From NCBI GenBank assembly GCA_021778115.1, contig JAJYCS010000016.1:1-39960 (forward strand): a DNA stretch of 39,960 bases, written 5' to 3'. Each line of letters opens with the position of its first letter. Positions within the stretch are counted from its first letter, which is position 1. Of the stretch, positions 2,374 to 37,590 are shown piece after piece. Position numbers and translations under genes: made by a program. This DNA is from Deltaproteobacteria bacterium. GTDB taxonomy: Bacteria > Desulfobacterota > Desulfuromonadia > Geobacterales > Pseudopelobacteraceae. The notes under the pieces were generated by a model that saw only the letters and a program-made list of their open reading frames with translations, did no database searches and was not told the DNA's origin.

Positions 2374-4689
2374 CTATTTGATGCAGACCTTACGTACCTC
2401 TTTCAGGTCGGTCAAGCCTTGGAAACACTTCAGGATACCATCCTGCTTGAGGGTGGTCATGCCGTCGGCGATCGCCTGTTTGCGGATCAGTTCTATCTCC
2501 GCCTTACGTTTGACCAAGACCTTCATCTCATCGGTCCCCTCCAATAGCTCGTGGATGCCGAGTCGCCCCTTATAGCCTGAATCGCCGCACTTCGCGCAGC
2601 CCGTGGCGCGCCACAGACGCAGTTCAGACGGGTTGAGGCCGGTCTTTTTGAACGCCTCCACGCCGTATTCCCGGATGACATCTTCCAGCTCATTGCGGTC
2701 TGGCTGGTACTCCTGTTTGCAGCTGCACAATCTACGGCAGAGACGTTGGGCCAGGATACAGAGGATGGCGTCGGAGAAGGAAAAGGGGTCAAGCTCCATG
2801 TCCAGCAGGCGGGTAACCGTTTCGGGGGCTGAGTTGGTGTGCAGGGTGGAGAATACCAGGTGACCGGTGAGGGATGACTCCACACCGATCTCGGCGGTCT
2901 CCTGGTCCCGCATCTCCCCCACCATGATCACGTCCGGATCGGCCCTCAGGAAGGAGCGCAGGGCTGCGGCAAAGGTGAAGCCGATCTTGGGGTGCACCTG
3001 CACCTGGCGCAGGCCACGCTGGGTGATTTCCACCGGGTCTTCGGCGGTCCAGATCTTGGTTTCCGGGGTGTTGATCACCGAAATAGCCGAATGCAGGGTG
3101 GTGGTCTTGCCGGAGCCGGTGGGGCCCACCACCAGGATCAGCCCGTAGGGTTGGTTGATGCAGTGGGTAAGCACCCGGCTGTTTCGGTCGGTCAGTCCCA
3201 GCTTGTCGTAGGGGAGAGCCGCCTCGCCGGAGGCCAACACTCGCATCACCACATCCTCCAGCTGGCCGGCCGTGGGGACGGTTGCCACACGCAGTTCCAC
3301 ATCCAGCGGCCCGAATTTCTTGAAGTCGATCTTGCCGTCCTGGGGTTTGCGGCGTTCTGAGATGTCCAGACCGCACATAATCTTGATCCGGGACGGTATG
3401 GCATATTTGTACTTGTACGGTATCCGCTGATAGACCTTGCAGCGTCCATCCACCCGGGTGCGGACGATGACATCTTCTTTGCCGGGGTACGGTTCGATAT
3501 GGATGTCGGAGACCTTGCTCTGCACCGCCTCAATGATGATTTTGTTGACCAGCTGCACAATGACGCTGTCCTGTTCGGAGACCCTGGAGGACTCCTGCTC
3601 GATCTCCGGTTCGTCGGTGGTGTCAAGCTTGTTTATCAGCTCATCGATGCTGCCGCCGGCGGCCAGGGAGGCTCCCTTGTTGTAGAACAGACCGATGAAA
3701 CTCTGGATGTCATCCCGGAAGGCCCCCACGTAGCTGATCCGCTTGTACTCCGGGTAGATGAACTTGATCATATCCTGGCGTCCCAAGTCGGTGGGGTCAT
3801 CCATGATGATCGAGAGGACGCCGTTTTCCACCCTGTAGGGTACCCACCACTCCTTTACCAGGCGATCCGGCTTGATCCGCTTCAGCAGTCCCGCCTCCAT
3901 GGGGGGGATGGCCGGTTCGTATCGGATGAATTCGGTGCCGAAAAAGAGCGACAACGCCTTGGCCATCTCATCGCGGGGGACGTTATGCTCCCGCATCAGC
4001 ACGGCATCCAGGCCTATCTTGGCCACATCCGGGTGGCTGGCGGCCTTTTCTAGGGTCTTTTCATCCAGCAGGTTCTTGTCCAACAGGTAGTTGTAGCGGC
4101 TGCGCTGGCGGATGATCTTGGAGGTGACCTGCAGGCGGTAGATGTTGTGGATGGCGATGGAAAGAGAGGTGGCCAGTTCCAGGGCGTAGGTGATGTCGGT
4201 GTCGTTAAAGGGGGTGTTGTCCTGCTTATTGATGACCTGAATAACCCCGATCAGGGTCCGTTGAAACTTCATCGGGATGCAGAGCACCTGCCGGGTGGTG
4301 AAGCCGGTCTTCTGATCCCAGGATTTGTCGAACTTGAGGTTTGAGCTGATCATCTTCAGTTCATGGTCATCGTAGGCGTCCTTGATGTTGAGTGCGGTAC
4401 CGGAGAGGGCGCAGAAACCGGAGAGACTGGCATCGGAGATCGGCACCACGATCTGTTTGACCTCATCGCCGCTTAAGACTTTTGAGACCAGTAGGTTGCG
4501 ACGGGCATCCGCCAGGTAGATGGTGATCCGCTGAGCGGTGAAGAGGGCGGCGATACCGTCTTTGATATGCAGCAGGATGGTGGTGAGACTGTCGGCGGAG
4601 TGGATCTCGTTGATCTTGTCCATCAGCCGCTTGCGGTATTCCAGTTGCTGTCTGAGCAGGTTGGTATCGGCAGCAGATGCGGTGTCCAT
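2374..4689 (-). CDS. GAF domain-GspE/PulE-type secretion ATPase (771 aa)
   Basis: This is a hexameric-type secretion/pilus assembly ATPase with an added sensor domain. Residues about 20-190 form a GAF domain (TAQRITIYLADA, then QVLCIPMKFQRTLIGVIQVINKQD). About 205-345 is a GspE N-terminal (MshEN-like) region. About 375-770 is the PulE ATPase with Walker A GPTGSGKTTT, the Asp-box region IWTAEDPVEITQRG, Walker B region ADPDVIMVGEMRDQETAEIG, and a His-box STLHTNSAPETVTRLLDM. Cysteines for the usual zinc site are present (CSCKQ, and GCAKCGDSGYKGRLGIHELLEG). AGGGA lies 7 bases before the ATG. No pseudopilin, secretin, PilC or PilT gene is near, so it stands alone. It could power type II secretion, a type IV pilus, or act as a ligand-sensing regulator of another ATPase; the sequence does not decide. 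Confidence 0.9.
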   Translation of the reverse strand: MDTASAADTNLLRQQLEYRKRLMDKINEIHSADSLTTILLHIKDGIAALFTAQRITIYLADARRNLLVSKVLSGDEVKQIVVPISDASLSGFCALSGTALNIKDAYDDHELKMISSNLKFDKSWDQKTGFTTRQVLCIPMKFQRTLIGVIQVINKQDNTPFNDTDITYALELATSLSIAIHNIYRLQVTSKIIRQRSRYNYLLDKNLLDEKTLEKAASHPDVAKIGLDAVLMREHNVPRDEMAKALSLFFGTEFIRYEPAIPPMEAGLLKRIKPDRLVKEWWVPYRVENGVLSIIMDDPTDLGRQDMIKFIYPEYKRISYVGAFRDDIQSFIGLFYNKGASLAAGGSIDELINKLDTTDEPEIEQESSRVSEQDSVIVQLVNKIIIEAVQSKVSDIHIEPYPGKEDVIVRTRVDGRCKVYQRIPYKYKYAIPSRIKIMCGLDISERRKPQDGKIDFKKFGPLDVELRVATVPTAGQLEDVVMRVLASGEAALPYDKLGLTDRNSRVLTHCINQPYGLILVVGPTGSGKTTTLHSAISVINTPETKIWTAEDPVEITQRGLRQVQVHPKIGFTFAAALRSFLRADPDVIMVGEMRDQETAEIGVESSLTGHLVFSTLHTNSAPETVTRLLDMELDPFSFSDAILCILAQRLCRRLCSCKQEYQPDRNELEDVIREYGVEAFKKTGLNPSELRLWRATGCAKCGDSGYKGRLGIHELLEGTDEMKVLVKRKAEIELIRKQAIADGMTTLKQDGILKCFQGLTDLKEVRKVCIK

Positions 4690-4798
4690 GATCTGTCCCT
4701 GTCTGTACGGAGTGCGTTGAACAATGAACCCGTCCTAAAATAGCAGATAAACGGCAATGCACAAAGGGATTAAATCGGGCGGATTACCCGCTCTCCAT

Positions 4799-4826
4799 TT
4801 GACTCGGACGTGAATGCTGGTACAAT
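4799..4826 (+). promoter_or_regulatory. Sigma-70-type promoter for the FecR-cyclase-PDE unit
   Basis: TTGACT at 4799-4804 and TACAAT at 4821-4826 are separated by 16 bases and lie 55 bases before the FecR-protein start. They are good matches to the -35 and -10 consensus. No other promoter is evident before the cyclase gene, so the three genes probably share it. Confidence 0.6.
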
Positions 4827-4880
4827 CCACGCAGTTTCGTTCTGACCCCGCTGCCGAGCCCCCGCAAGGAGGTAGCCCCC

Positions 4881-5927
4881 ATGAAAAAGATTTTCTGCTT
4901 CAGCGTACTTCTCCTCCTCTGCGCGCCCTTCTCGCTGCAGGCCGCCCAGGTGGGGATGATCGGCGCGCTCTCCGGCAGTGTCCAGGGGCGCGCCAAGGCG
5001 GGTCTGCCGTACACTCCCCTTGGGAAAGGGGCTCTGGTCAGCGAAGGGAGCTGGATCAAGACCGGCCCGACCGGCTGGGTGGAGTTGATCTTGAACGACC
5101 GGAGCACCTTTACCTTGGCAAATAACACCGAGTTCGAGATCAGTCGGTTTCTCCTGACCCGGCACAAGCGGGAAGGGACCTTTGAACTGGCCCAGGGAAA
5201 GCTGCGGGCCTCGGTGGTCAAGTTTGGCGGCCGGCAGAGCGGCATGACCGTGAGGAGCGGAACCGCCGTGGCCGGGATCAAGGGGACCGAGTTCCTGATG
5301 CTTACCCAGGGACAGGCCAACGTCTTTTTCGGGAATGAGGGGACGGTTGCCGTGTCCGGTGACGGCAAAGGCCAGCAGCAACCGATGACGGCCGGCACCA
5401 TGACCCAGAACACCCGCGGTATGGTGCCGCTGGCGCCACTCAAGGTTGAGGCCGGCACCCCCCTGGCCGAGGCCAAAGGGATATTCGACAGGGTAACGGC
5501 CGCCCTTCCACCGGCCGAATGGACCGACTCAGGCAGGATTTCCGATATCATAGCCCGCTGGAACATCAACTATGGCCATTATCTGGCCGATAGCGGCAAG
5601 TACCAGGAGGCGCTGCATGTCTTCCAGATCGCCCTTGACCTGACCAAGGTTGAGGAAGTCCGGGCAGATGCCCATATGGAACGTGGGGCGGTCTATGCGC
5701 GGTTCCTGGCCAATCCGGAGCTGGCATTGGCCGAATATCTGCTGGTGCTGGAAGAGTATCCACGACTGCCGCAGGCGGAAACAGCCCTGTTTAACACCGC
5801 CCAGACCTTGATGGAACTGGGCTTGACCGACCGGGCCAGGCTCCGTTTCGAGCAGTATCTCAAGCAATATCCGCAAGGCAGGCATCACAGCACGGCCGAG
5901 ACCCTGCTGCATAACCTGGGCAGGTAA
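4881..5927 (+). CDS. Exported FecR-domain protein with C-terminal TPR-like repeats
   Basis: The 348 aa protein begins with a clear Sec signal peptide (KKIFCFSVLLLLCAPFSLQA, residues 2-21). A FecR domain follows at about 25-170: a wound beta structure with GALSGSVQGRAKAG, WIKTGPTGWVELIL and VRSGTAVAGIKGTEFLM. The C-terminal third (about 205-345) is alpha helical and TPR/YbgF-like (YQEALHVFQIALDLTK, PELALAEYLLVLEEYPRL, RLRFEQYLKQYPQG). The start has a strong AAGGAGG box. The protein is predicted to be periplasmic. Only 6 bases separate it from the CHASE2 cyclase, so the two are co-transcribed. In other bacteria FecR/CHASE2-cyclase pairs are common, and I infer that it senses or scaffolds an extracytoplasmic signal for the cyclase. 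No TonB receptor or ECF sigma gene is adjacent, so a classical FecR anti-sigma role is unlikely. Confidence 0.88.
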   Translation: MKKIFCFSVLLLLCAPFSLQAAQVGMIGALSGSVQGRAKAGLPYTPLGKGALVSEGSWIKTGPTGWVELILNDRSTFTLANNTEFEISRFLLTRHKREGTFELAQGKLRASVVKFGGRQSGMTVRSGTAVAGIKGTEFLMLTQGQANVFFGNEGTVAVSGDGKGQQQPMTAGTMTQNTRGMVPLAPLKVEAGTPLAEAKGIFDRVTAALPPAEWTDSGRISDIIARWNINYGHYLADSGKYQEALHVFQIALDLTKVEEVRADAHMERGAVYARFLANPELALAEYLLVLEEYPRLPQAETALFNTAQTLMELGLTDRARLRFEQYLKQYPQGRHHSTAETLLHNLGR

Positions 5928-5933
5928 GGGCGT

Positions 5934-8027
5934 ATGATGCGTAAGCGCCTGGCCTTCATCCTGTTCGGTCTTTTGGCTGCGGTGATTACCGGTATCGCCT
6001 ACCGTCAGGCGCCGCCGGCTTTGCAGCAGCTGGATTACCGGCTGAAGGATGCCCGTTTCCGGGCGAGGGGACCGGTGAGGCCTGACCGTGATGTGGTGGT
6101 GGTGGCCATCGACCACAAGAGCATCCAGGAGATGGGACGGTGGCCCTGGTCTCGGGAGATCACCGGCCACCTTTTGGAGAATCTGTCCCAGTACGGCGCC
6201 AAGGTTACCGCACTGGATATCGTCTTTTCAGAACCCCAGGACCCGGTTCATGATAAGGCCTTGGCCGCTGCGGTGGCCCGTGCCGGGAATGTGGTGATGG
6301 GCTATTTCTTTCGGGATGAGGAACAGGCCATGAATCCGGTGGCCCAACTGCAGTTGGAGGGCAGCCGGGTCAAACTGATCAGAACGGCTGAAGGTGTGCA
6401 GTCCATCCCCCTTCCTGAATACCGTTCAGCTGATCTCAACCTCCCCGCTCTGGCCAGAGGCGCCCTTGACTTCGGCTTTTTCAACGCCCGACCGGACGGC
6501 GATGGCCTCTATCGGCGCGCTGTGCTGCTGCTACTCTACAATGGCGATATCTACCCCTCCCTGGCGATGGCGGCCGTATCCCGGTATCTGGGGGGGCAGA
6601 TTATGCTGGATGTACGGCAGTGGGGGGTGGACGGGGTGCGGATCGGCGGTTTGCGGATCCCGGCCCGTGAAGATGGCACCATGGCCCTCAACTACTATGG
6701 CCCGGCCGGCGCCTTCCGTACGGTCTCTGCCGTGGATGTGTTGAAAAAAAGGCTGCCCTCCAAGGCGCTCGCGGGGACCATCGCCTTTGTGGGGGCCACC
6801 GAGATCGGTATCTTCGACGTCCGCCCCACGCCCTTTGATCCGCTCCAGCCGGGGATCGAGCTGCATGCCACCGTGGCAGCCAATGCCCTGGAACACCGTT
6901 TTCTTCGGTATGACGGCGCCACCCAGATGCTGGAGCTGCTCTGCATTCTCACCCTGCCGGTGCTGCTGGGGGTTGTGCTGGCCTTCATGCCGGGGACCTT
7001 CGCCGCTCTGGCCGCCTTCGTCGGCGTCACGGCCCTGTTCTGGGGCGTGAATTATCTGGCCTTTACCCGTTGGCTGCAGGATATGACCCTGATCTACCCC
7101 CTGCTGGGGCTTGCCCTGACCTATCTGGGCAGTGAGGCTTGGCGCAATCTGGTGGTGGAGAGGAAAGGGCGCCAGCTGAAAAAGGCCTTTTCCAACTACG
7201 TCTCCCCTGATCTGGTGAAGGAGATCGAGAAAAACCCCGACTCGTTGGTGCTGGGTGGGGAACAGCGGGAGCTCTCTGTCCTGTTTTCCGATATCCGTGG
7301 CTTTACCACGGTCTCTGAAAACCTGACCCCGCCGGAGCTGGTGACCCTCTTAAACGAGTATCTCTCCCCCATGACCCGGATCGTCCTTGAAGAACGGGGT
7401 ACCCTGGACAAGTTCATCGGCGACGCGGTGATGGCCCTCTACAACGCGCCGCTTGATCTCCCTGAACACGCCCTCCACGCCTGCCGGACCGCCGTGCGGA
7501 TGCTGGAGGAGCTTGAGCGGTTGAATAGCGACTTTGCACACCGTGGCATGCAGACCCTTGACATCGGCGTGGGGATCAATACCGGACCGGCGGTGGTGGG
7601 GAACATGGGGGCCGACATCCGCTTCGACTATACCGCCATTGGTGATGCCGTCAATCTGGCCTCCCGCCTGGAGGGGTTGAACAAATACTACGGCACCCAT
7701 ATCCTGGTCAGCGAGGAGACCTGTCGCCAGCTCCCCGTTGGGGCGTTTACCCTTCGTGAGGTGGACCGGGTACGGGTGAAGGGGAAACAGCAGCCGATCG
7801 TGATGTATGAGCTGATGCTCGGTAACCGGGAACTGCTGCCCCGTTTTGAAGAAGGGCTGGAACGATATCGGACCAGGGATTTTGAAAAGGCACGGACGAT
7901 CTTCGATGAGTTGTCGGCACAGTACGCTGACGGGCCGTCACGTCTGTATCGCAGCCGTTGCGATGAGTATCTCGAACTGCCGCCTCCGGACGACTGGGAT
8001 GGGGTCTACACCGCGAAAGGCAAATAA
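5934..8027 (+). CDS. CHASE2-domain class III adenylate/guanylate cyclase
   Basis: Inner-membrane cyclic nucleotide synthase of 697 aa. An N-terminal membrane helix (about residues 4-24) is followed by a periplasmic CHASE2 sensor domain at about 30-310, with VVVVAIDHKSIQEMGRWPW and VTALDIVFSEPQ. Two to three helices at about 330-400 come next, then a class III cyclase domain at about 440-625. The metal-binding aspartates are in LFSDIRGFT and LDKFIGDAVMALYNAP; YTAIGDAVNLASRLEGLNKYY supplies the transition-state Asn and Arg. The Lys in LDKFIGD points to ATP rather than GTP, but specificity is not certain. A short TPR-like tail (RFEEGLERYRTRDFEKARTI) ends the protein. ATG at 5937 is an alternative start, better spaced from AAGGG. 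The upstream FecR protein and downstream phosphodiesterase suggest a dedicated cNMP circuit. Confidence 0.94.
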   Translation: MMRKRLAFILFGLLAAVITGIAYRQAPPALQQLDYRLKDARFRARGPVRPDRDVVVVAIDHKSIQEMGRWPWSREITGHLLENLSQYGAKVTALDIVFSEPQDPVHDKALAAAVARAGNVVMGYFFRDEEQAMNPVAQLQLEGSRVKLIRTAEGVQSIPLPEYRSADLNLPALARGALDFGFFNARPDGDGLYRRAVLLLLYNGDIYPSLAMAAVSRYLGGQIMLDVRQWGVDGVRIGGLRIPAREDGTMALNYYGPAGAFRTVSAVDVLKKRLPSKALAGTIAFVGATEIGIFDVRPTPFDPLQPGIELHATVAANALEHRFLRYDGATQMLELLCILTLPVLLGVVLAFMPGTFAALAAFVGVTALFWGVNYLAFTRWLQDMTLIYPLLGLALTYLGSEAWRNLVVERKGRQLKKAFSNYVSPDLVKEIEKNPDSLVLGGEQRELSVLFSDIRGFTTVSENLTPPELVTLLNEYLSPMTRIVLEERGTLDKFIGDAVMALYNAPLDLPEHALHACRTAVRMLEELERLNSDFAHRGMQTLDIGVGINTGPAVVGNMGADIRFDYTAIGDAVNLASRLEGLNKYYGTHILVSEETCRQLPVGAFTLREVDRVRVKGKQQPIVMYELMLGNRELLPRFEEGLERYRTRDFEKARTIFDELSAQYADGPSRLYRSRCDEYLELPPPDDWDGVYTAKGK

Positions 8028-8094
8028 GCGCCTGAAGATTACGCCTGCTGGCAGGTAATACGGCGGTCTAAGGTCAGATGGGAGAGGAGAGGCG

Positions 8095-8883
8095 ATGAAA
8101 CTGCGAGTACTGGGCAGTGCCGGGGCGGAGTTCCCCGATTTCAGGCCCCCGGCCTTTCTGATAGATGACGCACTGCTGCTGGACGCCGGCACCATCGGCG
8201 CCGTGCTGACCGAAGAGGAACAGTGGCGGATCCGTTCGATCTTCATCACTCACGCCCACTTGGATCATATCCGCAGTATCCCTGCCCTGGCAGACAACAT
8301 CATCATCAAGAATCTGCGGCATCTGGTGACGGTCTACGCCATCGAACCGGTGATTGACGCCCTGCGTAGTCACCTTCTTAACGGTATTATCTGGCCTGAT
8401 TTCACCCTGCTCCCTTCACCGGAGGATCCGGTGCTCCGTTATGAGGTCATCACGCCGGGCAGCCCCACCACCATGGGCAGTCCCGAACACGCTCGCCGTT
8501 TGGTGGATGGGCATACGTTGACCGCCATTGAGGTAAACCATACGGTACCGGCGGTGGGCTACTGCGTGGAAAAGGACGGCGTGAGGCTGGTCTATACCGG
8601 CGACACCGGCCCCACCGAGGAGATCTGGCAGGTGGCCAGCGGCGCCGATGCCGTTATTGTTGAGGTCTCCTTCCCTGATAGTCAAGAGGAGCTGGCACTG
8701 CTTACCAGGCACCTCTGCTGCTCACTGCTGAAAAAAGAACTAGCCAAGATGACGACCCTGCCGAAACGGATCCTGATCACCCACCCCAAGCCGCAGTACT
8801 ATGAACAGATCCGTGGCGAGGTGGCGGCGTTGGGTATCGACAATCTGGAACTGCTGCGGGATGGCAATGTCTATCAGTTGTAA
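8095..8883 (+). CDS. Class II 3',5'-cyclic nucleotide phosphodiesterase (metallo-beta-lactamase fold)
   Basis: The 262 aa protein has the metallo-beta-lactamase fold. Its metal-binding motif, THAHLDHIRSIPALADN (about residues 53-69), is the class II phosphodiesterase variant HxHLDH rather than the generic HxHxDH of hydrolases. Further ligands are the His in AIEVNHTVPAVGYCVE, the Asp in VYTGDTGPTEEIW and a C-terminal His in ILITHPKP. This family (Saccharomyces PDE1, Vibrio CpdP) cleaves cAMP or cGMP to the 5' nucleotide. There is no signal peptide, so it is cytoplasmic, where the cyclase product appears. GGAGAGG precedes the ATG. It lies 67 bases after the cyclase on the same strand, with no terminator between. 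A role as another cytosolic MBL hydrolase cannot be excluded. Confidence 0.85.
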   Translation: MKLRVLGSAGAEFPDFRPPAFLIDDALLLDAGTIGAVLTEEEQWRIRSIFITHAHLDHIRSIPALADNIIIKNLRHLVTVYAIEPVIDALRSHLLNGIIWPDFTLLPSPEDPVLRYEVITPGSPTTMGSPEHARRLVDGHTLTAIEVNHTVPAVGYCVEKDGVRLVYTGDTGPTEEIWQVASGADAVIVEVSFPDSQEELALLTRHLCCSLLKKELAKMTTLPKRILITHPKPQYYEQIRGEVAALGIDNLELLRDGNVYQL

Positions 8884-9685
8884 CCGGCTTGATCGGTCGG
8901 TCGAGCGTCTGGGCGGCTGGGCGCTTCACCGCTGCCGTTTTCTCCTGGAGACCGGTGATCTCCTGCTGCAGACGCTGCGTTCGCTCCTGTCGGCCCCCTC
9001 GCTGGAAAACGGCGCCATACGGGCGGTATTTCTGAAACAGATCTACTTTACCGGCCTTGAGGCATCGAAGATCATAGTCCTGGTGGCTCTGATCCTGGGT
9101 ACCGTGATTGTGAGTCAGGTGGTGGGGCTGGTGGGGGGGGGGAACGGCTCCTTAATCGGCAGGGTGCTGGTCTGGGTGGTGTTCCGAGAGTTGGGGCCAC
9201 TCCTGACCGCCATGATCGTGATAGCCCGCAGTGGTACCGCCATTGCGGCTGAACTGGGCGCCATGAAGATAAACGGCGAACTGGAGGCTCTGGAACTACT
9301 GGGGATCCCCCGGGAACGGTATCTGATCCTTCCCCGCATGACCGGTGTGGCCCTTGCCGTGGTTGTGCTGACCATCTATTTTGTGTTGACCGCCTTTATC
9401 GGTGGTTTTCTCATCGCCTCCATGGGACATCATATCCCCTACGGCCAGTTCCTGCAGGGGATTGTGGGTACCGTGGCCTGGTGGGACCTGGCGGTGCTGC
9501 TGGTCAAGACCGTGGCCTTCGGTATCACCATCCCCCTGGTCTGCTGCCGGTCAGGCCTTTCGGTCGGCACCAGCGCAACCGAGATACCGCAGGCAGCCAC
9601 CAGGGCGGTGATCACCAGTCTCTTCTGCATTGTCGCGCTGGACGGCCTGATCACCTTTCTCGCGACCTTGCCGGTCCCGTCTTGA
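8867..9685 (+). CDS. MlaE/YrbE-type ABC transporter permease (orphan)
   Basis: The 272 aa membrane protein carries the MlaE domain: FLKQIYFTGLEASKIIVLVALILGTVI, then the conserved cytoplasmic loop with FRELGPLLTAMIVIARSGTA, AAELGAMKINGELEALELLGI and PRMTGVALAVVVLT. Five to six hydrophobic segments are visible. MlaE permeases move phospholipids between inner and outer membranes together with an MlaF ATPase and an MlaD MCE protein. Neither partner is next to it. The reading frame stays open upstream to 8801, but ATG 8867 is preferred because GCGGG lies 6 bases before it; ATG 8861 is possible. The gene start overlaps the phosphodiesterase end, so it is probably the last gene of that transcript. 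Confidence 0.88.
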   Translation: MSISCNRLDRSVERLGGWALHRCRFLLETGDLLLQTLRSLLSAPSLENGAIRAVFLKQIYFTGLEASKIIVLVALILGTVIVSQVVGLVGGGNGSLIGRVLVWVVFRELGPLLTAMIVIARSGTAIAAELGAMKINGELEALELLGIPRERYLILPRMTGVALAVVVLTIYFVLTAFIGGFLIASMGHHIPYGQFLQGIVGTVAWWDLAVLLVKTVAFGITIPLVCCRSGLSVGTSATEIPQAATRAVITSLFCIVALDGLITFLATLPVPS

Positions 9686-31368: not shown

Positions 31369-32142
31369 TTAACGGAGACCTGCCATATCAAGCAGTTTAC
31401 CCCAGATACGGTTGAACCATCGCCCCAAGCGAATGGAAAGTCGTTCAAGCCAGGATTCTTCCCCCCGCTGTTTTTTCAGAACCAATGCCAAATTAAGACG
31501 AGTTTCATAATCATGCGGGTTTACCGCCTGTGCCAGGCGTAGCCATTCCAATGCGCCATCGAGGTCCTGCAGCATGGCCAGTGAGATACCCATCTGGCGC
31601 ATGGCGTCGTAATCGTGCTCATTGACCACGAGCGCCCGCTTGAACCACCCCAGGGCCTCCTGATCCTCCCCTACCTTTGAGTAGGAAACACCGGTCTGCC
31701 GCAGGGCATCACCATCGTGCGGGTTGATAGCCAGGGCAGCGGCGTAGAAGCGGATCGCCTTGCGGTCGCGGTCCAGCCGGGAATGAGCGATGCCCATGCA
31801 GCGCAACGTATCGGCATCGTTGGGAGAAAGTGCCAGCACCCGGTCAAAGGTGCGCACAGCGCTCCATGTCTTGTTGTTCATCAGCTGCCAGATGCCGATG
31901 CCACGCTGCAGAAACGGGTCATCCGGCGCCAGAGCGGCAGCCTCCTCTAAAAGACGTCCCTGCTCTTTGCTGCTGTGATCGCGATACCAGGCTGCCTCGG
32001 CCTGGAAATAATATCCGTATGCGGGATCACTCCGGGCAACCTCCAGGCTGTGCGTCAGCAGTTTCTCTCCCTCATCGATCCGGCCCAGGTCAAACAGGTC
32101 ATCAACACGCGAGGCGAGTTGTTGAAATTCGGCACGTTCCAC
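31369..32142 (-). CDS. Cytoplasmic TPR-repeat protein
   Basis: The 257 aa protein consists of about five tetratricopeptide repeats (such as SAVRTFDRVLALSPNDADTL, KAIRFYAAALAINPHDGDAL, EALGWFKRALVVNEHDYDAM, GALEWLRLAQAVNPHDYETR) and a C-terminal amphipathic helix (WLERLSIRLGRWFNRIWGKL) that could touch the membrane. No signal peptide is seen. The start is taken at GTG 32142, which has GAGAGGAG upstream; GTG 32169 overlaps the sigma-54 activator stop and is the alternative. It is transcribed directly after the activator gene and so is probably coupled to it. TPR proteins scaffold complexes; the partner is not known. Confidence 0.85.
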   Translation of the reverse strand: MERAEFQQLASRVDDLFDLGRIDEGEKLLTHSLEVARSDPAYGYYFQAEAAWYRDHSSKEQGRLLEEAAALAPDDPFLQRGIGIWQLMNNKTWSAVRTFDRVLALSPNDADTLRCMGIAHSRLDRDRKAIRFYAAALAINPHDGDALRQTGVSYSKVGEDQEALGWFKRALVVNEHDYDAMRQMGISLAMLQDLDGALEWLRLAQAVNPHDYETRLNLALVLKKQRGEESWLERLSIRLGRWFNRIWGKLLDMAGLR

Positions 32143-32158
32143 GTTGTCGGCACTCCTC

Positions 32159-33832
32159 TCAGGTGTCACTCAGTCCATAACGTTTCATCCATCGCCACAG
32201 GGTAGTCCGTTCAACTCCCAGTTCCCGCGCTGCGTCGTTCCGATTGCCATCGTGTGCCGCCAGAACAGCTCTGATCTCTTCAACGGTTGGGATCCGGCCT
32301 GAACGTCGCGTTTCTGGCGGAGCCGCTTCAATGCTGCTTTCAACAAAACTGCGGGGCAGATGTTCCAACATGATCTCGTTTCCCTTGCACAGGATAACTG
32401 ACTGTTCCAGAAGGTTGAGCAACTCCCGTACATTGCCGGGGAACGAGTGGTGCAGCAGTAGTTTGAGAACGTCCGGGGCGACGTTTCGGACCTTTTTATT
32501 GTAGGTCATATTGAACCGTTGAAGGGCCATATCCACCAACAGCGGGATGTCTTCTCGACGTTCCCTGAGGGGCGGTATGTTGAGGGTGACGATATTTATC
32601 CTGAAGTAGAGGTCCTGGCGGAAGGTGCCGTTGGCTACCATCTCCTCAAGATTTCGGTGGGTGGCGGTGATGAAGCGGACATCGGCCTTGATGGGCGATC
32701 TGGCACCAAGGGGCTGAAACTCATGATTCTCCAAAACCCGGAGCAGCTTAACCTGAAGGGGCAGCGGCAGGTCGCCTACTTCGTCGAGGAAAAAGGTCCC
32801 CCCCTGACAGAGTTCCAGTCGGCCGGGGCGATTTTCGGTCGCCCCGGTGAACGCCCCTTTGCGGACGCCGAAGATTTCTGATTCAAGAAGGGTTTCCGGC
32901 AGGGCGCCGCAGTTGACAATCACCAATGGGCCGCTGCGGCGGGGGGAGAGTTCATGAATTGCACGGGCGAACAGCTCCTTGCCGGTGCCTGATTCGCCGT
33001 GGAGAAAGACGGTGGCATCACTTGCCGCAATGTCCTCCATGACATCAAACAGACGTCGCATGACCGGATTGCGACTGACCAGGCTGCGGAAGGTGTATTT
33101 TTCACGCAACTCCTCACGCATGCTGGTGATCGGCGTCAGGTCCCGCACGGTCTCTATGCCACCCATCACCTTGCCGGCACAGTCGTACAGAGTCGAAGCG
33201 CTCACCGAGATCAGCTTCTTCCGCTCGGTGCGGTCGATAATCTCCACCTCCCGCTGGATCGACTGACCGGTGGCGATGGCTTCAACCATCGGACAGGCGC
33301 CGGTGCAGACCTCGGTACGAAATATCTCATAGCAGGGTTTGCCGATTGCCTCATCGTGACTCACCCCGGTAATCTCCTCGCAGGCCCGGTTGAAGTGGGT
33401 GATGTGCATCCCCTCATCAACCGTAAAAAGGCCATCAGGGACTGAATCCATGATGGCGTAAATCCTCCGGAGACTGCGAATGGTCTCCACACCGCCGATC
33501 GGTTTACCTTCTCCATCGTAGAGTACCGAGGCGCTGACCGAGACCGGCACCGGATCATCCTGGCAGTTTTGGATGGTTACCTCCCGGTTAAGGACAGGTT
33601 TCCCCTTTTCCATGGCTTCACGTACCGGGCAGTTACTGAAACAGGCCGCAGTGCGGAATACCTGGTGGCATGCCTTGCCGATAGCGCTTTCTCTGGGAAT
33701 ACCGGTGATCAGTTCGGCGGCCCGGTTGTAGGCCATGATTTTCATGTTTCGGTCGACGGTGAACACCCCGTCGGCAACTGAGTCCATGATATGGCTGATA
33801 TATTCGAGGTGTTCACAATCCTTTGTCTTCAT
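32159..33832 (-). CDS. Sigma-54-dependent activator with two Cys-motif PAS domains
   Basis: Enhancer-binding transcription regulator of 557 aa. Two tandem PAS domains (about 10-115 and 125-235) each contain C-X8-C-X3-C-P: C55, C64, C68 and C167, C176, C180. The AAA+ domain (about 245-480) has Walker A GESGTGKE (279-286), an intact sigma-54-contacting GAFTGA (326-331) and Walker B TFFLDEVGDLPLPLQ. The C-terminal Fis-type helix-turn-helix is GNRNDAARELGVERTTLWRW. There is no receiver domain, so sensing is probably through the PAS domains. The conserved cysteine triplets suggest an iron-sulphur or other metal centre and redox sensing. It lies between two promoter regions with shared sigma-54-like elements and is the obvious candidate to control them. 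Confidence 0.93.
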   Translation of the reverse strand: MKTKDCEHLEYISHIMDSVADGVFTVDRNMKIMAYNRAAELITGIPRESAIGKACHQVFRTAACFSNCPVREAMEKGKPVLNREVTIQNCQDDPVPVSVSASVLYDGEGKPIGGVETIRSLRRIYAIMDSVPDGLFTVDEGMHITHFNRACEEITGVSHDEAIGKPCYEIFRTEVCTGACPMVEAIATGQSIQREVEIIDRTERKKLISVSASTLYDCAGKVMGGIETVRDLTPITSMREELREKYTFRSLVSRNPVMRRLFDVMEDIAASDATVFLHGESGTGKELFARAIHELSPRRSGPLVIVNCGALPETLLESEIFGVRKGAFTGATENRPGRLELCQGGTFFLDEVGDLPLPLQVKLLRVLENHEFQPLGARSPIKADVRFITATHRNLEEMVANGTFRQDLYFRINIVTLNIPPLRERREDIPLLVDMALQRFNMTYNKKVRNVAPDVLKLLLHHSFPGNVRELLNLLEQSVILCKGNEIMLEHLPRSFVESSIEAAPPETRRSGRIPTVEEIRAVLAAHDGNRNDAARELGVERTTLWRWMKRYGLSDT

Positions 33833-33871: not shown

Positions 33872-34099
33872 TCAGATTTTGGCTGTGCAGCGCAGTTGTT
33901 GTTCAGTCCGGTTGCGGGCGATCCGCATCAGCATGACGCCGGTCATGGAGAATAGCACCCCGCCAATTACAAGGGTAAAACCGGTTATTGTGCGGGTTGC
34001 AGGCCCGACCACCAGGACACCGACACCGGCGAAGGTGCCGAGGCCGCCACATATATACAGTATCAGGGCCAAGATGGGAACAGTTTGCGACGATTTCAT
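33872..34099 (-). CDS. Small two-span membrane protein (75 aa)
   Basis: Unrecognised 75 aa protein with two hydrophobic helices, ILALILYICGGLGTFAGVGVLV and TGFTLVIGGVLFSMTGVMLM, connected by GPATRTI. The short basic tail RIARNRTEQQL should face the cytoplasm. GAGAGGA sits 5 bases before the ATG. It lies between cbcL and the sigma-54 activator on the same strand, after an intrinsic-terminator-like hairpin, and is thus likely to be expressed at a lower level from readthrough or separately. A role with the CbcL membrane complex is possible but unproven. Confidence 0.72.
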   Translation of the reverse strand: MKSSQTVPILALILYICGGLGTFAGVGVLVVGPATRTITGFTLVIGGVLFSMTGVMLMRIARNRTEQQLRCTAKI

Positions 34100-34172: not shown

Positions 34173-36026
34173 TTACTTCTTCAGGAAGGCAAAGATCATC
34201 GCAACCACGAGGGTGAGGCCGGTAAAGAGCGCCAGGAACCCAAAGGCCTTGAAGAGGAAGTCATACCAGACGCTGCTGGGTTTTTCGCAGACAAAGCTTT
34301 CGGTAATCCCTTGTTCCTCATAGCGTTTCCATTGGTCACCGCGTTCCTCAACAAACTCTTCCTTCGACATCTGACCGTTAAAGATCACGAAGTCCATCGG
34401 GAACTTCTCGGGACGACCGTGGGTGTTGAAGAAGTGCACCGTGAAGATAAAGCCGGTGGCTAGCAGGGCCTCGTCGGAGTGGACAATGGTTGCCACGTTG
34501 AACATCCAGCCCGGCAGGAACTGGCCGAAGAACTCGGGGAACCAGAGCATCAGACCGGAACCGCCGATGGCAAACATACCCCAGAATACCGCGATGAAGT
34601 CGAATTTTTCCCAGTAGGTCCAGCGGTCGAAGGTCGGTTTGGGCCCTCTGAAAAGGAACCAGCGGATCATGCCCGTCACATCTTTGAGGTCGCGGAAGTT
34701 GGGCATGAGGGAATCGGGGCCGAACATACGCTGCAGGAAGTTGCCGCGGATGTCATTGCGCAAGAACAGGAAGTCGATGCTCATCCAGAGAGCGCCCAGG
34801 AAGTAGTAGAAGGTCAGGATGGCGCAGCCGCGGTGGATTAGACCGGCGTACTCGATACCGCCATAGAAGGACATCAGGGTCTTGGCCCAGGGTTGGTCGG
34901 AGAATTTAAGCGGAAGACCGGTCAACGAGAGCCCCAGGAAGCTGACGATTACGGTAAAGTGCAGGAAGATGTGACGTTTTTTGAAGCGGTAGTACAGTTT
35001 GTGCGGATCCTCTACATGGTGCACATGGCCTTCGAACAGGGCCTTTTGCTTCTCACGGTTTTCCACAAAGCCACGGAACATCCAGAGCAGGGTATGGAGC
35101 CAGAATACGGCAAACGTACCTACCAGAAGTCCGGTCATCGCCTTGAAGGTCCAGTACAGAATCGGGTAATTTTTGCGGTCCGAGTGGCTGCCATGGGCGT
35201 AGAACTTGGCAAACAGTGCCGTCGCCTTGGTGTGGCACTGGGCACAGGTTTTAGCGCCGTTTTGCGGATTAATGCTCGATGCCGGGTCGTCTTTGGGTAG
35301 GACGTTATGCGCGGTGTGGCAATCGGAGCAACCGGCTGCCTTTTTCAGCATGCCCAGTCGGTACCCCTTACCATGGTAGCTCTCCAGGTAGGTCTCCACC
35401 GCAGTGGGGTTCACGTGGTTACGCTCCATCATTTTTTCATCATTGTGGCATTTGATGCAGGCATCGACATGGAACATCCGTCCTGCAACCGTTGTGGGTG
35501 GTTGTATTTTTTGAATATTGTGCAGACTATGGCAGTTGGAACAGTCGGGGGCATCCTGGTTTCCGTTCAAAACCGCCTTTCCATGGACCGAATTCAGAAA
35601 GCCCTTTTCGTTGGGGTGGCATTTCAGGCAGGCGTTCATTATCGCCTTCTTATCCCCTTTGGTGGGGACCATGCTATGAATATCGCTATGGCAGGTGGCG
35701 CAGGTGAGGCCGTTGGCGGCATGGACACTCTTGGCGAACTCTTTTGCCTCGTTACCGTGGCAACGGGCGCAGTTTACCTTGTCTAATTTGGTAAAGCCGG
35801 TCATATGCCTTTTCAGGTCAGCGCTCTGCAGGTGGCAGCTGGTACAGCCGTTCTTGCCGTGAGGTGAGGCGCCGAAGGCATCGAGGCTGATCTTATTGCC
35901 ATGGCAGCCCAGACAGTTTTCTGGGTCGTAGGCCATGCTGTTGGTCTCGGCCCGGACGATAACCGGGGAGGTCAGTAGACCAAAAAGGAGGAACAGGGTG
36001 AGAAACGGGAAGGCAAGGTGTCGCAT
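34173..36026 (-). CDS. cbcL: Combined b/c-type cytochrome CbcL (nine c-hemes plus diheme b domain)
   Basis: The 617 aa protein has a signal peptide (LAFPFLTLFLLFGLLTSPVI, residues 4-23) and nine CXXCH motifs at residues 38, 61, 86, 109, 133, 162, 190, 233 and 261. A cytochrome b561/HydB-like membrane domain starts near 290 (YWTFKAMTGLLVGTFAVFWL, HIFLHFTVIVSFLGLSLTG, LIHRGCAILTFYYFLGALW, AVFWGMFAIGGSGLMLWFP, ALLATGFIFTVHFFNTHGRP) with His residues suited to two b-hemes. This arrangement is that of CbcL, which in G. sulfurreducens passes electrons from menaquinol to the periplasm for extracellular metal or electrode reduction at low potential. The ATG is 2 bases after the stop of the transposase-derived gene, with AGGAG upstream, so the two genes are in one operon. 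Confidence 0.9.
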   Translation of the reverse strand: MRHLAFPFLTLFLLFGLLTSPVIVRAETNSMAYDPENCLGCHGNKISLDAFGASPHGKNGCTSCHLQSADLKRHMTGFTKLDKVNCARCHGNEAKEFAKSVHAANGLTCATCHSDIHSMVPTKGDKKAIMNACLKCHPNEKGFLNSVHGKAVLNGNQDAPDCSNCHSLHNIQKIQPPTTVAGRMFHVDACIKCHNDEKMMERNHVNPTAVETYLESYHGKGYRLGMLKKAAGCSDCHTAHNVLPKDDPASSINPQNGAKTCAQCHTKATALFAKFYAHGSHSDRKNYPILYWTFKAMTGLLVGTFAVFWLHTLLWMFRGFVENREKQKALFEGHVHHVEDPHKLYYRFKKRHIFLHFTVIVSFLGLSLTGLPLKFSDQPWAKTLMSFYGGIEYAGLIHRGCAILTFYYFLGALWMSIDFLFLRNDIRGNFLQRMFGPDSLMPNFRDLKDVTGMIRWFLFRGPKPTFDRWTYWEKFDFIAVFWGMFAIGGSGLMLWFPEFFGQFLPGWMFNVATIVHSDEALLATGFIFTVHFFNTHGRPEKFPMDFVIFNGQMSKEEFVEERGDQWKRYEEQGITESFVCEKPSSVWYDFLFKAFGFLALFTGLTLVVAMIFAFLKK

Positions 36027-36028
36027 GG

Positions 36029-36772
36029 TTAGTACTCCTGACAGGTAGTGTGATCAATCAGCAATTGAGCGCAAAGGTCCGCAGCGTCGGGCCGCTGTCG
36101 TACCTTGAAACGGAATTCCATCTCCCGCAAAAAAAGGGGGAAATTGTGGCGAAAGCCCCCCTGATATCGGGCCAATCCTTTTTTGGCAAATTGCCAGAAC
36201 TGGCGGGGGAGTTCTGCTGCGGCGCCTTCATGAACATACAGATGTATCTGGTCCAGCAGGTGACGTCTGATGCTTTCTTCAGTACGGCCATAGAGCCAAC
36301 CGTTGATGGCGGCAACAGGGCGCGGCTCCCCCTGTTCTCCGTCAGTAGTGCAAAATAGCAGTGAAAGGGTGTTCAGGGAACTTGCGATGGCGCAGATCGG
36401 TTGTGCCTGACGTCCGAAATCAGGGTGGGAGTCGTCACGGTCAAACAGTCTGCGTGAAATGCGCTCTGAGCTGAAATGAGCCACGGCTGAATCCTCACAG
36501 CAACGGGCCATGCCTTCACGGGCACGGAGAAAATAGCGTTGCACGGTCTTGATGTTCAGGTTTAACTCCGTTGCTACCGAGGTGGTGGTGGTCATTTCCC
36601 AAAAACGTCTGCCGATGATACGGATCGTATCTTCCGGCAAGTGTGAGTGACGGGGCATCGGTGTGAATTTGTGTGCGCATTGGGCGCATTTGATACGACC
36701 ATCCTCGAGGTGGTAGGTCTTGCCCTCGCCGCAGAATGGGCAGGTTGTTGCGGCAGTAGCGGGAATGGTCAT
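36029..36772 (-). CDS. Transposase-derived zinc-ribbon protein (IS1595/ISXO2-like), probable regulator
   Basis: The 247 aa protein begins with a Cys4 zinc ribbon, CPFCGEGKTYHLEDGRIKC, then AQC (CxxC-X14-CxxC), followed by HKFTP. A helix-turn-helix-like segment (RIIGRRFWEMTTTTSVATEL, then NIKTVQRYFLRAREGM) follows. This order matches the N-terminus of IS1595/ISXO2-group transposases, and the C-terminal ARYQGGFRHNFPLFLREMEF plus RFKVRQ resembles their tail. The central part is short and I see no convincing DDE catalytic triad, and there are no terminal inverted repeats, so it is not a mobile element. ATG 36772 is preferred because the upstream frame (to 36865) runs through a strong terminator. 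It is 2 bases before cbcL; I infer a domesticated DNA-binding regulator of cbcL. Confidence 0.78.
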   Translation of the reverse strand: MTIPATAATTCPFCGEGKTYHLEDGRIKCAQCAHKFTPMPRHSHLPEDTIRIIGRRFWEMTTTTSVATELNLNIKTVQRYFLRAREGMARCCEDSAVAHFSSERISRRLFDRDDSHPDFGRQAQPICAIASSLNTLSLLFCTTDGEQGEPRPVAAINGWLYGRTEESIRRHLLDQIHLYVHEGAAAELPRQFWQFAKKGLARYQGGFRHNFPLFLREMEFRFKVRQRPDAADLCAQLLIDHTTCQEY

Positions 36773-36790
36773 GAAGTCGTCCGGTACGAT

Positions 36791-36817
36791 GGTGTAGTCC
36801 GAATATCTGGTGTAGTC
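36791..36817 (-). repeat. GACTACACC direct repeat between terminator and gene
   Basis: GACTACACC occurs twice on the minus strand (36817-36809 and 36799-36791) 18 bases apart, and TTGACT overlaps the first copy. The pair sits just before the start of the transposase-derived gene and after the terminator, where a promoter is required. It may be an operator for that protein itself. Confidence 0.45.
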
Positions 36818-36881: not shown

Positions 36882-37028
36882 TTAACTCACCAGTCTGATG
36901 GCAATATGTGAGAGGGCCGGCCACGCCACTGCCAAACCGGCGCCGGCAGCGAATACCCCGGCAACTGCCAGGACCTTGCCGATGTACTTGCGATCATCAA
37001 GATCAGAATAATTTACTTTTGCCTTCAT
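36882..37028 (-). CDS. MKAK-family small membrane protein (48 aa)
   Basis: Protein of 48 aa reading MKAKVNYSDLDDRKYIGKVL, then AVAGVFAAGAGLAVAWPALSHIAIRLVS. The first ten residues share the pattern MKAKxN(Y/F)(S/G)xL with neighbours; residues about 18-37 form one membrane helix. AAAGGAGC lies 6 bases before the ATG. It is 39 bases after the 50-aa gene and ends 22 bases before the terminator. I do not recognise it. The helix is rich in Ala and Gly, which favours packing against other helices, so it may be a small subunit of a membrane complex. Confidence 0.75.
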   Translation of the reverse strand: MKAKVNYSDLDDRKYIGKVLAVAGVFAAGAGLAVAWPALSHIAIRLVS

Positions 37029-37067: not shown

Positions 37068-37220
37068 TTAGCTGAAAAGGCTGACAATGGCGCCAATTGC
37101 ACTGGCGGCCGACCAGGTGACGAAACCTGCCAGGAAGATAGTGATACCGGCAAAGAGTGCCAGGCTACCGCGTGCGGTGGTCTCTGCCACCAGGGTTGAA
37201 AAATTGCTTTTTGCTTTCAT
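37068..37220 (-). CDS. MKAK-family small membrane protein (50 aa)
   Basis: Protein of 50 aa, MKAKSNFSTLVAETTARGSL then ALFAGITIFLAGFVTWSAASAIGAIVSLFS. The N-terminus shares MKAKxN(Y/F)(S/G)xL with the 48-aa neighbour and with the 90-aa protein at 31 kb. One hydrophobic stretch (about 19-38) is long enough to span the membrane. AAAGGAACAGG precedes the ATG. The gene follows the NifX-like gene by 52 bases in the same direction, presumably co-transcribed from the sigma-54-like element at 37639-37658. I do not recognise the family. Confidence 0.75.
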   Translation of the reverse strand: MKAKSNFSTLVAETTARGSLALFAGITIFLAGFVTWSAASAIGAIVSLFS

Positions 37221-37272: not shown

Positions 37273-37590
37273 TTAGATGATGTTAAGCTGTTTCAAAAGC
37301 TTGCGAGCGGCTTCGCTCCCTTCGCTGAACACCCTGATACCGGCCTGTACCATGGTGTCAATAAGGGCCCCTTCGGGGCGTGTTCGACAGACTACTTGAT
37401 GCACCCCCAGTTCATTGAGCCATCTGGGAAGCAACGGCGACTCCTTGGCATCCCAGATGCCGATACTGATGTTTTGTGTCTGGGCAGGTTTTTTAACATC
37501 GTGATCAACGATGAAAAAAATCCGCTCAAAGCCACTGGTTGGGTGGGTCAGGTTCCCGTAGTACGGTATGGCTATCTTTCCAGTGGTCAT
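37273..37590 (-). CDS. NifX/NifB-C-type (dinitrogenase iron-molybdenum cofactor family) protein
   Basis: The 105 aa protein fits the Dinitrogenase_FeMo-Co family fold: MTTGKIAIPYYGNLTHPTSG start, FFIVDHDV second strand, then ISIGIWDAKE, LLPRWLNELGVHQVVCRT and ALIDTMVQAGIRVFSEG. Family members bind or carry metal clusters and also occur as stand-alone proteins outside nitrogen fixation. No nif gene is nearby, so it is not evidence of nitrogenase. Only Cys in VVCRT is present. It is the first gene of the small-protein transcript and diverges from the hydrogenase genes, so a role in metal or cluster handling for a redox enzyme is possible. Confidence 0.8.
   Translation of the reverse strand: MTTGKIAIPYYGNLTHPTSGFERIFFIVDHDVKKPAQTQNISIGIWDAKESPLLPRWLNELGVHQVVCRTRPEGALIDTMVQAGIRVFSEGSEAARKLLKQLNII

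Follow-up and report, generated by a model that had tools for sequence, protein, structure and literature searches.

The conversion of transposases into regulators is well documented in eukaryotes, and in bacteria the TldR proteins have arisen from nuclease-dead TnpB. The CbcL cytochromes consist of a multihaem c-type part fused to a HydC/FdnI-like b-type part. As presented in the portions of the papers available to us, which applies to every article cited here, the TldR proteins are transposon-derived enzymes which act as RNA-guided transcription regulators (PMC13418256), and domesticated transposases such as ALP1 and ALP2 have lost catalysis and been co-opted by their eukaryotic hosts, ALP2 working through a Polycomb complex (PMC7282668). 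Members of the IS1595 family are defined by terminal inverted repeats and an 8-bp target duplication (PMC8101967; the family definition also appears in PMC12561309). In G. sulfurreducens CbcL is needed for low-potential extracellular acceptors (PMC8235581, PMC11434368). CbcL and ImcH are described in D. soudanensis as well, and the available portions of that article mention no transposase-derived gene of the kind reported below (PMC4914508). Nor did a search of the open-access literature, with subscription papers largely outside it, yield the description of an IS1595-derived bacterial regulator.

The window analyzed here, a stretch of 39,960 nucleotides from a genome of 2.29 Mb, carries a catalytically dead IS1595-type gene (hereafter the dead gene) directly upstream of a cbcL homolog (Table 1). 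Since its catalytic triad is lost, credible ends are missing, it occurs as a single copy, it is under purifying selection and its position beside cbcL is conserved, its identification as a domesticated IS1595-family transposase is strongly supported. With the IS1595 transposases, of which L072 is the nearest intact one, it shares the zinc ribbon, the helix-turn-helix (HTH), a tail of the form FW-x3-K...YxGG...REMEFRFN, the clade and the end motif; unlike IS1595 elements it has neither the D, D, E residues nor an end pair and target duplication, and is a single syntenic copy. Its likeness to TldR lies in the apparent use of a transposon-derived enzyme as a transcription regulator; TldR is RNA-guided, whereas the dead gene specifies a DDE transposase with an HTH whose presumed site is a kept transposon end. 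Loss of catalysis and apparent co-option by the host recall ALP1 and ALP2. The product of the downstream gene is a CbcL homolog with both a multihaem part and a b-type membrane part. Canonical cbcL genes (63–69% identical), in contrast, lie in other gene contexts, and in 18 of 18 fetched loci of this kind there was no dead-gene or sm48 match at E≤0.01.

Table 1. Features of the module in the window, ordered by position.
Feature	Position	Strand	Remarks
TPR-repeat protein	31369–32169	minus	last gene of module
PAS-PAS-AAA sigma-54 enhancer-binding regulator	32159–33832	minus	between sm75 and the TPR gene
sm75, small membrane-protein-like gene	33872–34099	minus	75 aa; downstream of cbcL
CbcL-type cytochrome	34173–36026	minus	617 aa; nine CXXCH (by eye); b561-like membrane part
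Dead IS1595-type transposase-like gene	36029–36772	minus	247 aa
GACTACACC direct repeat	36791–36799 and 36809–36817	minus	overlaps putative operator
Putative operator ACACCAGATATTCGGACT (ACC-N7-CGGAC)	36796–36813	minus	from family comparison; probable fossil transposon end
Intrinsic terminator stem-loop	36836–36859	minus	T tail to about 36831; after small-protein genes
sm48, small membrane-protein-like gene	36882–37028	minus	48 aa
sm50, small membrane-protein-like gene	37068–37220	minus	50 aa
Presumed NifX/NifB-like gene	37273–37590	minus	105 aa; first of module

The initial annotation had credited the protein with the zinc ribbon, HTH and C-terminal tail of this transposase group, and all three are indeed present, each scoring under the curated cut-offs. 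The zinc ribbon, CPFC-x14-CAQC, matches PF12760 with an E value of 0.0013 (19.1 bits, below the curated 25.4); its four cysteines are invariant in 14 of 14 aligned rows, and PF12760 is found at E≤0.05 in 13 of the 14 family members. The HTH (approximately residues 43–91) gives sigma-70 region 4-like and ISL3-transposase HTH matches, both below cut-offs (E 0.009 and 0.03). In the alignment of orthologues, the N-x-KT-x-Q recognition region belongs to the best-kept positions. Residues 191–224, the C-terminal tail, match the last 35 positions of NF033547 at an E value of 0.12 only. PF12762 [DDE_Tnp_IS1595] is matched by five of the 14 members, the intact L072 among them, and is not matched by the window protein. 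Between the HTH and the tail the clades diverge strongly, both ends of the protein being kept. In the predicted structure (mean pLDDT 83, pTM 0.75) residues 51–100 exceed a pLDDT of 90. Using this model, Foldseek found no match to solved structures at E≤0.001; VIA-align returned HTH/paired-domain matches, the best with a Z of 7.4 over 60 residues, which is too low to indicate more than a common HTH. No RNase H match was returned by VIA-align, an absence which excludes nothing.

Aligned with its intact IS1595 relatives, the window protein has S, R and R in the columns of D, D and E, in keeping with the earlier remark that no DDE triad was evident. The full triad occurs in 12 of 12 intact rows of this alignment versus 0 of 33 dead rows. 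Among the latter we noted single coincident residues (D in column 1 of G031, G116a, G652 and G155; D in column 2 of G629 and G630; E in column 3 of G611), and G645 has D at column 2 together with E at column 3. The dead gene is bracketed by a 13-nt inverted pair, 85% complementary (35947–35959 and 36777–36789). Most likely this pair is due to chance: cbcL contains one of the arms, the 8 outermost bases do not match between them, and G009 has not preserved the arm on the cbcL side. No target duplication was detected at the gene in the window, and no second copy in its genome. Mobile IS1595 elements would be expected as several copies at varied sites; here we find one copy at a fixed place beside cbcL. 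The absence of terminal inverted repeats proposed in the initial annotation holds for the gene as an element; the leader, however, appears to keep one fossil end (see below).

The dead gene is under purifying selection and is not a relic. Its dN/dS ratios (Nei-Gojobori omega) are 0.059–0.138 in 12 within-clade pairs, those of cbcL being 0.019–0.087 in nine pairs; in the window clade dS is 1.6–2.0, near saturation, so that these omegas are rough, and three pairs with dS of 0.3–0.5 give 0.06–0.10. The matched stretch is free of internal stops in all cbcL-linked copies of the class except that of G088, where the match extends beyond the gene's own stop. A 39-row tree unites 28 dead rows in a single clade (96/88), whose sisters are the intact L072, from a gammaproteobacterial genome and the nearest intact relative found, and the frame-broken L075 of the Desulfobacterales; all 30 group together with 100/98, and the IS1016-group transposases lie outside. 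An earlier tree with fewer dead rows again placed L072/L075 beside these (92/95). The cbcL-linked rows as a single clade are not rejected (p 0.318) in what is a tree with long branches. G652, a genome outside the order of the window, falls together with G031 (99/96), a hint that the module can move between orders. The L072 element possesses perfect identical 16-bp ends GGGATCGGACCATCAG and an 8-bp duplication TTAATCTA. A plasmid search with the L072 protein returned 82 records, all below 60% identity and none covering 80% of the query.

The TAA stop of the dead gene is followed by two bases and the cbcL ATG at 36026, exactly the spacing that had been read beforehand; elsewhere the gap measures up to about 135 bases. 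From this spacing we infer that the two genes may be co-transcribed. The window cbcL product matches PF14522/PF14537 and PF01292, the latter at 21.8 bits versus a cut-off of 30.1, and module-type cbcL copies are 72–89% identical. The module runs NifX-like gene, sm50, sm48, terminator, dead gene, cbcL, sm75, sigma-54 activator, TPR protein. The first of these, which we take to be NifX/NifB-like, has no Pfam match at E 0.05.

Matches to the dead gene at E≤0.001 occur in 12 of 57 genomes, its own included, and 11 of these adjoin cbcL on its upstream side, the exception being G049; cbcL itself is present in 52 of the 57. A class-wide search with a ten-row profile (E≤1e-10) gave matches in 36 of 277 genomes. 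In the fetched neighborhoods cbcL is next downstream in 23 of the 277 (24 copies), 13 of them in the window's order and ten in others (G263, G553, G574, G611, G623, G624, G629, G630, G652 and G655). The association with cbcL, for which conservation in other Geobacterales had been proposed as a check, is thus a conserved one. Neither of the outcomes that the initial annotation had named as counter-evidence, an intact triad together with inverted repeats or a lack of conservation beside cbcL, was encountered. The rest of the 36 comprise eight genomes with a second dead group, the dead copy of G049 beside a Tn7-like transposon, IS1016-like transposases with a triad in G540 and G550, and a broken one in G642; G578 and a second G554 match are left out of this sorting. 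Outside the order the module is rearranged and parts are missing, there being no activator match in the G611 stretch and no NifX-like match in that of G623; the sigma-54 activator belongs to most modules. G001 has kept sm48, cbcL, a small gene and the activator and lacks the dead gene, which can therefore be lost. The 120 bases between its sm48 and cbcL (L092 2737–2856) contain a ACCAGATACCAAG stretch and no CGGAC, and represent a natural deletion for comparison.

Some irregularities were seen in cbcL itself: the G002 match (C1:2935430–2937184) is interrupted by two in-frame stops, and in G014 the module's cbcL (L065 2824–4603) is split over two frames, in each case through decay or assembly error. 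Upstream of the small-protein genes we recognized by eye a sigma-54-like promoter of the TTGGCAC type, along with GTTGCA/TGCAAC palindromes. Pairs of sm50 and sm48 recur (in the window upstream of 37590, and in L170 and L172–L182), with up to four sm48 genes per genome. The recurring pairs with their sigma-54-like promoters and palindromes are possibly a regulon of small membrane-protein-like pairs.

Two further suggestions had been made about the leader: that the gene follows a terminator, and that a direct repeat might be its own operator. The terminator was recovered as the single match in the 2.1 kb scanned, where shuffled sequences give 2.2 ± 1.7, and a hairpin with a T run is visible by eye at the equivalent place in 13 of 14 module loci, the exception being G001, which has no dead gene. 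The operator proposal was right as to place and not as to the unit. Only the window and G009 have both copies of the 9-bp repeat in full, and in G007 and G011 the second is kept and the first changed, so that it appears to be clade-specific; the more widely conserved feature is ACC-N7-CGGAC[C/T], which often reads ACCA-N6-CGGACC. GGAC[C/T] is present in 27 of 32 dead-gene leaders (19 of 24 cbcL-linked, 8 of 8 in the second group) against a background of 15.5% of 7118 windows, and in 18 of the 24 and 7 of the 8 a CGGAC[C/T] lies no more than 130 nt upstream of the zinc ribbon (background 320 of 7118 windows, 4.5%). The leaders of the Geotalea and G155 dead rows have neither motif, and five loci of one Trichlorobacter subclade have GAACC and no GGAC[CT]. 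The site shares bases with a possible start codon in three genomes (G624, G629 and G630). The window site has three mismatches to GGACCA-N6-CGGACC and alone is at chance level (61 matches seen, 60 expected), so its meaning rests on orthology. At up to three mismatches the form found in the window occurs nowhere else in its own genome, the reversed control pattern giving one match; a single site points to local rather than global action. A search of the leader for a sigma-70 promoter on the gene's strand was negative, and nothing in the window matched Rfam.

The conserved leader element (ACACCAGAT...CGGAC, after the terminator) was noticed before any transposon end had been inspected. A matrix was built from seven leaders, one per clade, its 20-base frame being set after the L072 end had been seen. 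On ends of the L072/L075 type its best offset is +6 from the tip in six of six ends (three copies). The L072 ends rank 106 and 5 of 21,780 positions, those of L249, a second and broken copy in the same genome, 18 and 1 of 7,030, and those of L247, the L075 locus, 2 and 7 of 7,330; without the G263 row right ends rank 11 of 21,780 and 2 of 7,330. For 22 control ends from 11 other IS1595-type elements the ranks are 10 to 1,770 of 4,398–9,240, the best being 10–14 (left ends of the near-identical L200, L212 and L219) and 41 (L222, left); their best offset is 11 in 11 of 22, as these ends resemble each other. Such other IS1595-type ends were rejected as the motif source, since they match more weakly and none has the exact bipartite string. 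Across 298 fetched loci, which with overlaps total 1.76 Mb, exact GGACCA-N6-CGGACC turns up in five contexts. Three are leaders, cbcL-linked in G553 and of the second group in G555 and G657; the other two are right ends of L072-type copies, one of them intact and one broken. For ACCA-N6-CGGACC there are 19 contexts in the same loci, namely 15 leaders, two ends and two elsewhere.

In 17 new loci held out from the matrix the leader match reaches p≤0.05 in 12, of which 10 also pass p≤0.01; the misses are G630 (0.102), G629 (0.058), G648 (0.126), G602 (0.299) and G554 (0.238), and the G652 leader, identical to the training row G031, is not independent. The leader site is the best of the whole locus on both strands in eight of the 17; in G553 the highest score falls at a position displaced from the bipartite site. 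When real sequence, targets included, is cut into 230-nt windows, a score of 9.97 is attained by 41 of 3,426 and one of 4.8 by 258. A plain transposon-end matrix is significant in four of 14 cbcL-linked leaders (G009, G007, G011 and G263), with p 0.004 in G009 and G263, 0.014–0.106 in the three remaining rows of the window clade and 0.106 in the window; it is not significant in the nine other cbcL-linked leaders, Geotalea or G155. An IS1016-type end matrix gives p 0.033 in G031. The reverse test, that is, the leader matrix on elements and new loci, is the informative one, and the plain end matrix is weak. A transposon-end site is thus kept near the gene in most leaders of the family, the window copy alone not being significant. 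Because L072-type ends share the leader site 6 bp inside the tip, and from the contexts of the exact string, the putative operator is probably a fossil transposon end, of which the window copy would be a diverged example.

We consider it likely that the dead transposase binds this fossil end and locally autoregulates itself together with cbcL, the DNA-binding half and the bound end having both been kept, the latter just upstream of the gene's own start and of cbcL. The ancestor would have been an IS1595-family transposase of the zinc ribbon and HTH type, which landed upstream of cbcL when the class was still young, or travelled between its orders together with the module. It would then have lost its catalytic residues and right element end while retaining its DNA-binding half and left end. 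The present protein most likely binds ACC-N7-CGGAC, a site flanked by the terminator of the sigma-54-driven small-protein genes on one side and the dead gene's start codon on the other. Through this site it would control transcription of the dead gene and cbcL, probably by occupying the promoter or start region; repression would be more likely than activation. The dead gene would then form a second, cbcL-specific layer beside the sigma-54 activator. Descent, loss of the triad, purifying selection, synteny and the presence of the end in most leaders were all computed. It is well supported that a DDE transposase was converted and its end with it. Regulation is the most likely function on this reading of the sequences, from which we infer the DNA binding, the joint transcript with cbcL and the sign of the effect. 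Of the original proposal, a transposase remade into a dedicated regulator of a respiratory cytochrome, the domestication stands, and the dedicated regulator is reached indirectly, through the kept zinc ribbon, HTH and end site.

Other explanations must be weighed against this. The protein might be a kept DNA-binding protein with another job, binding of the fossil end being leftover autoregulation and cbcL a passive neighbor. That job could involve other sites, a partner such as the sigma-54 activator found in most modules, or redox or zinc sensing. The divergence of the middle of the protein between clades, with both ends kept, would fit such a role, as would the lack of a visible regulon implied by the single site in its genome; we nevertheless think it unlikely, since of the 33 dead copies looked at in the class 24 have cbcL as their next downstream gene, whereas the rest of the module is reshuffled or incomplete in other orders. 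Alternatively, control might be exerted on RNA, the terminator and the element forming an attenuation or anti-termination switch and the protein being a trans-acting factor or a cistron which couples cbcL translation. A hairpin kept just before the element, the small gap to cbcL and the want of a clear sigma-70 promoter between terminator and gene are what one would expect of such a switch. The element, however, resembles the DNA transposon end of sister elements and occurs in second-group leaders without the cbcL module, and Rfam gave no match in the window; we regard control of this kind as quite improbable.

The clear IS1595 ancestry and the weak inverted pair around the gene might further suggest a transposase relic, decaying or no longer mobile, or else an IS1595 element that is still active. 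As far as sequence can tell, an active transposon is ruled out by triad, ends and copy number, there being one copy and no target duplication, and a decaying relic by selection and synteny, with omega far below 1, intact frames (G088 aside) and a class-wide association with cbcL; neither reading is at all credible. Local autoregulation of the dead gene and cbcL through the fossil end is thus the explanation we prefer.

Related dead proteins exist outside the cbcL module. The second dead group comprises eight genomes (G646, G627, G555, G648, G602, G645, G657 and G554; loci L283, L287, L288, L289, L291, L292, L293 and L294). They show the same leader motif and, in several, an upstream GTATACG-like element. 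A gene which we take to be MoaA-like is near in four of the eight, and a divergent small gene in five. In Geotalea sp. SG265 (G049) the dead IS1595-type gene (L074 8405–9190) sits between what we assume to be a HipA/HipB-like pair and Tn7-type tnsA/B, tnsC and tniQ-like genes. IS1595-type proteins without part of the triad were also seen in L189, L190, L191, L192, L076 and L242, from genomes of the phylum and one UBP1 genome. We lean towards the view that one IS1595-like domestication gave rise to class-wide regulators in at least two lines, cbcL-linked and moa-type, each with its own fossil end GGACCA-N6-CGGACC and each set to control a respiratory or metabolic neighbor.

With an intact sister element at hand, both the protein and its site can be compared side by side with their transposon counterparts. 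The bacterial precedent, TldR, concerns RNA-guided enzymes (PMC13418256, from the portions available); here a DDE transposase has apparently been converted together with its own end. The finding also puts the dead gene forward as a specific candidate for switching the CbcL homolog.
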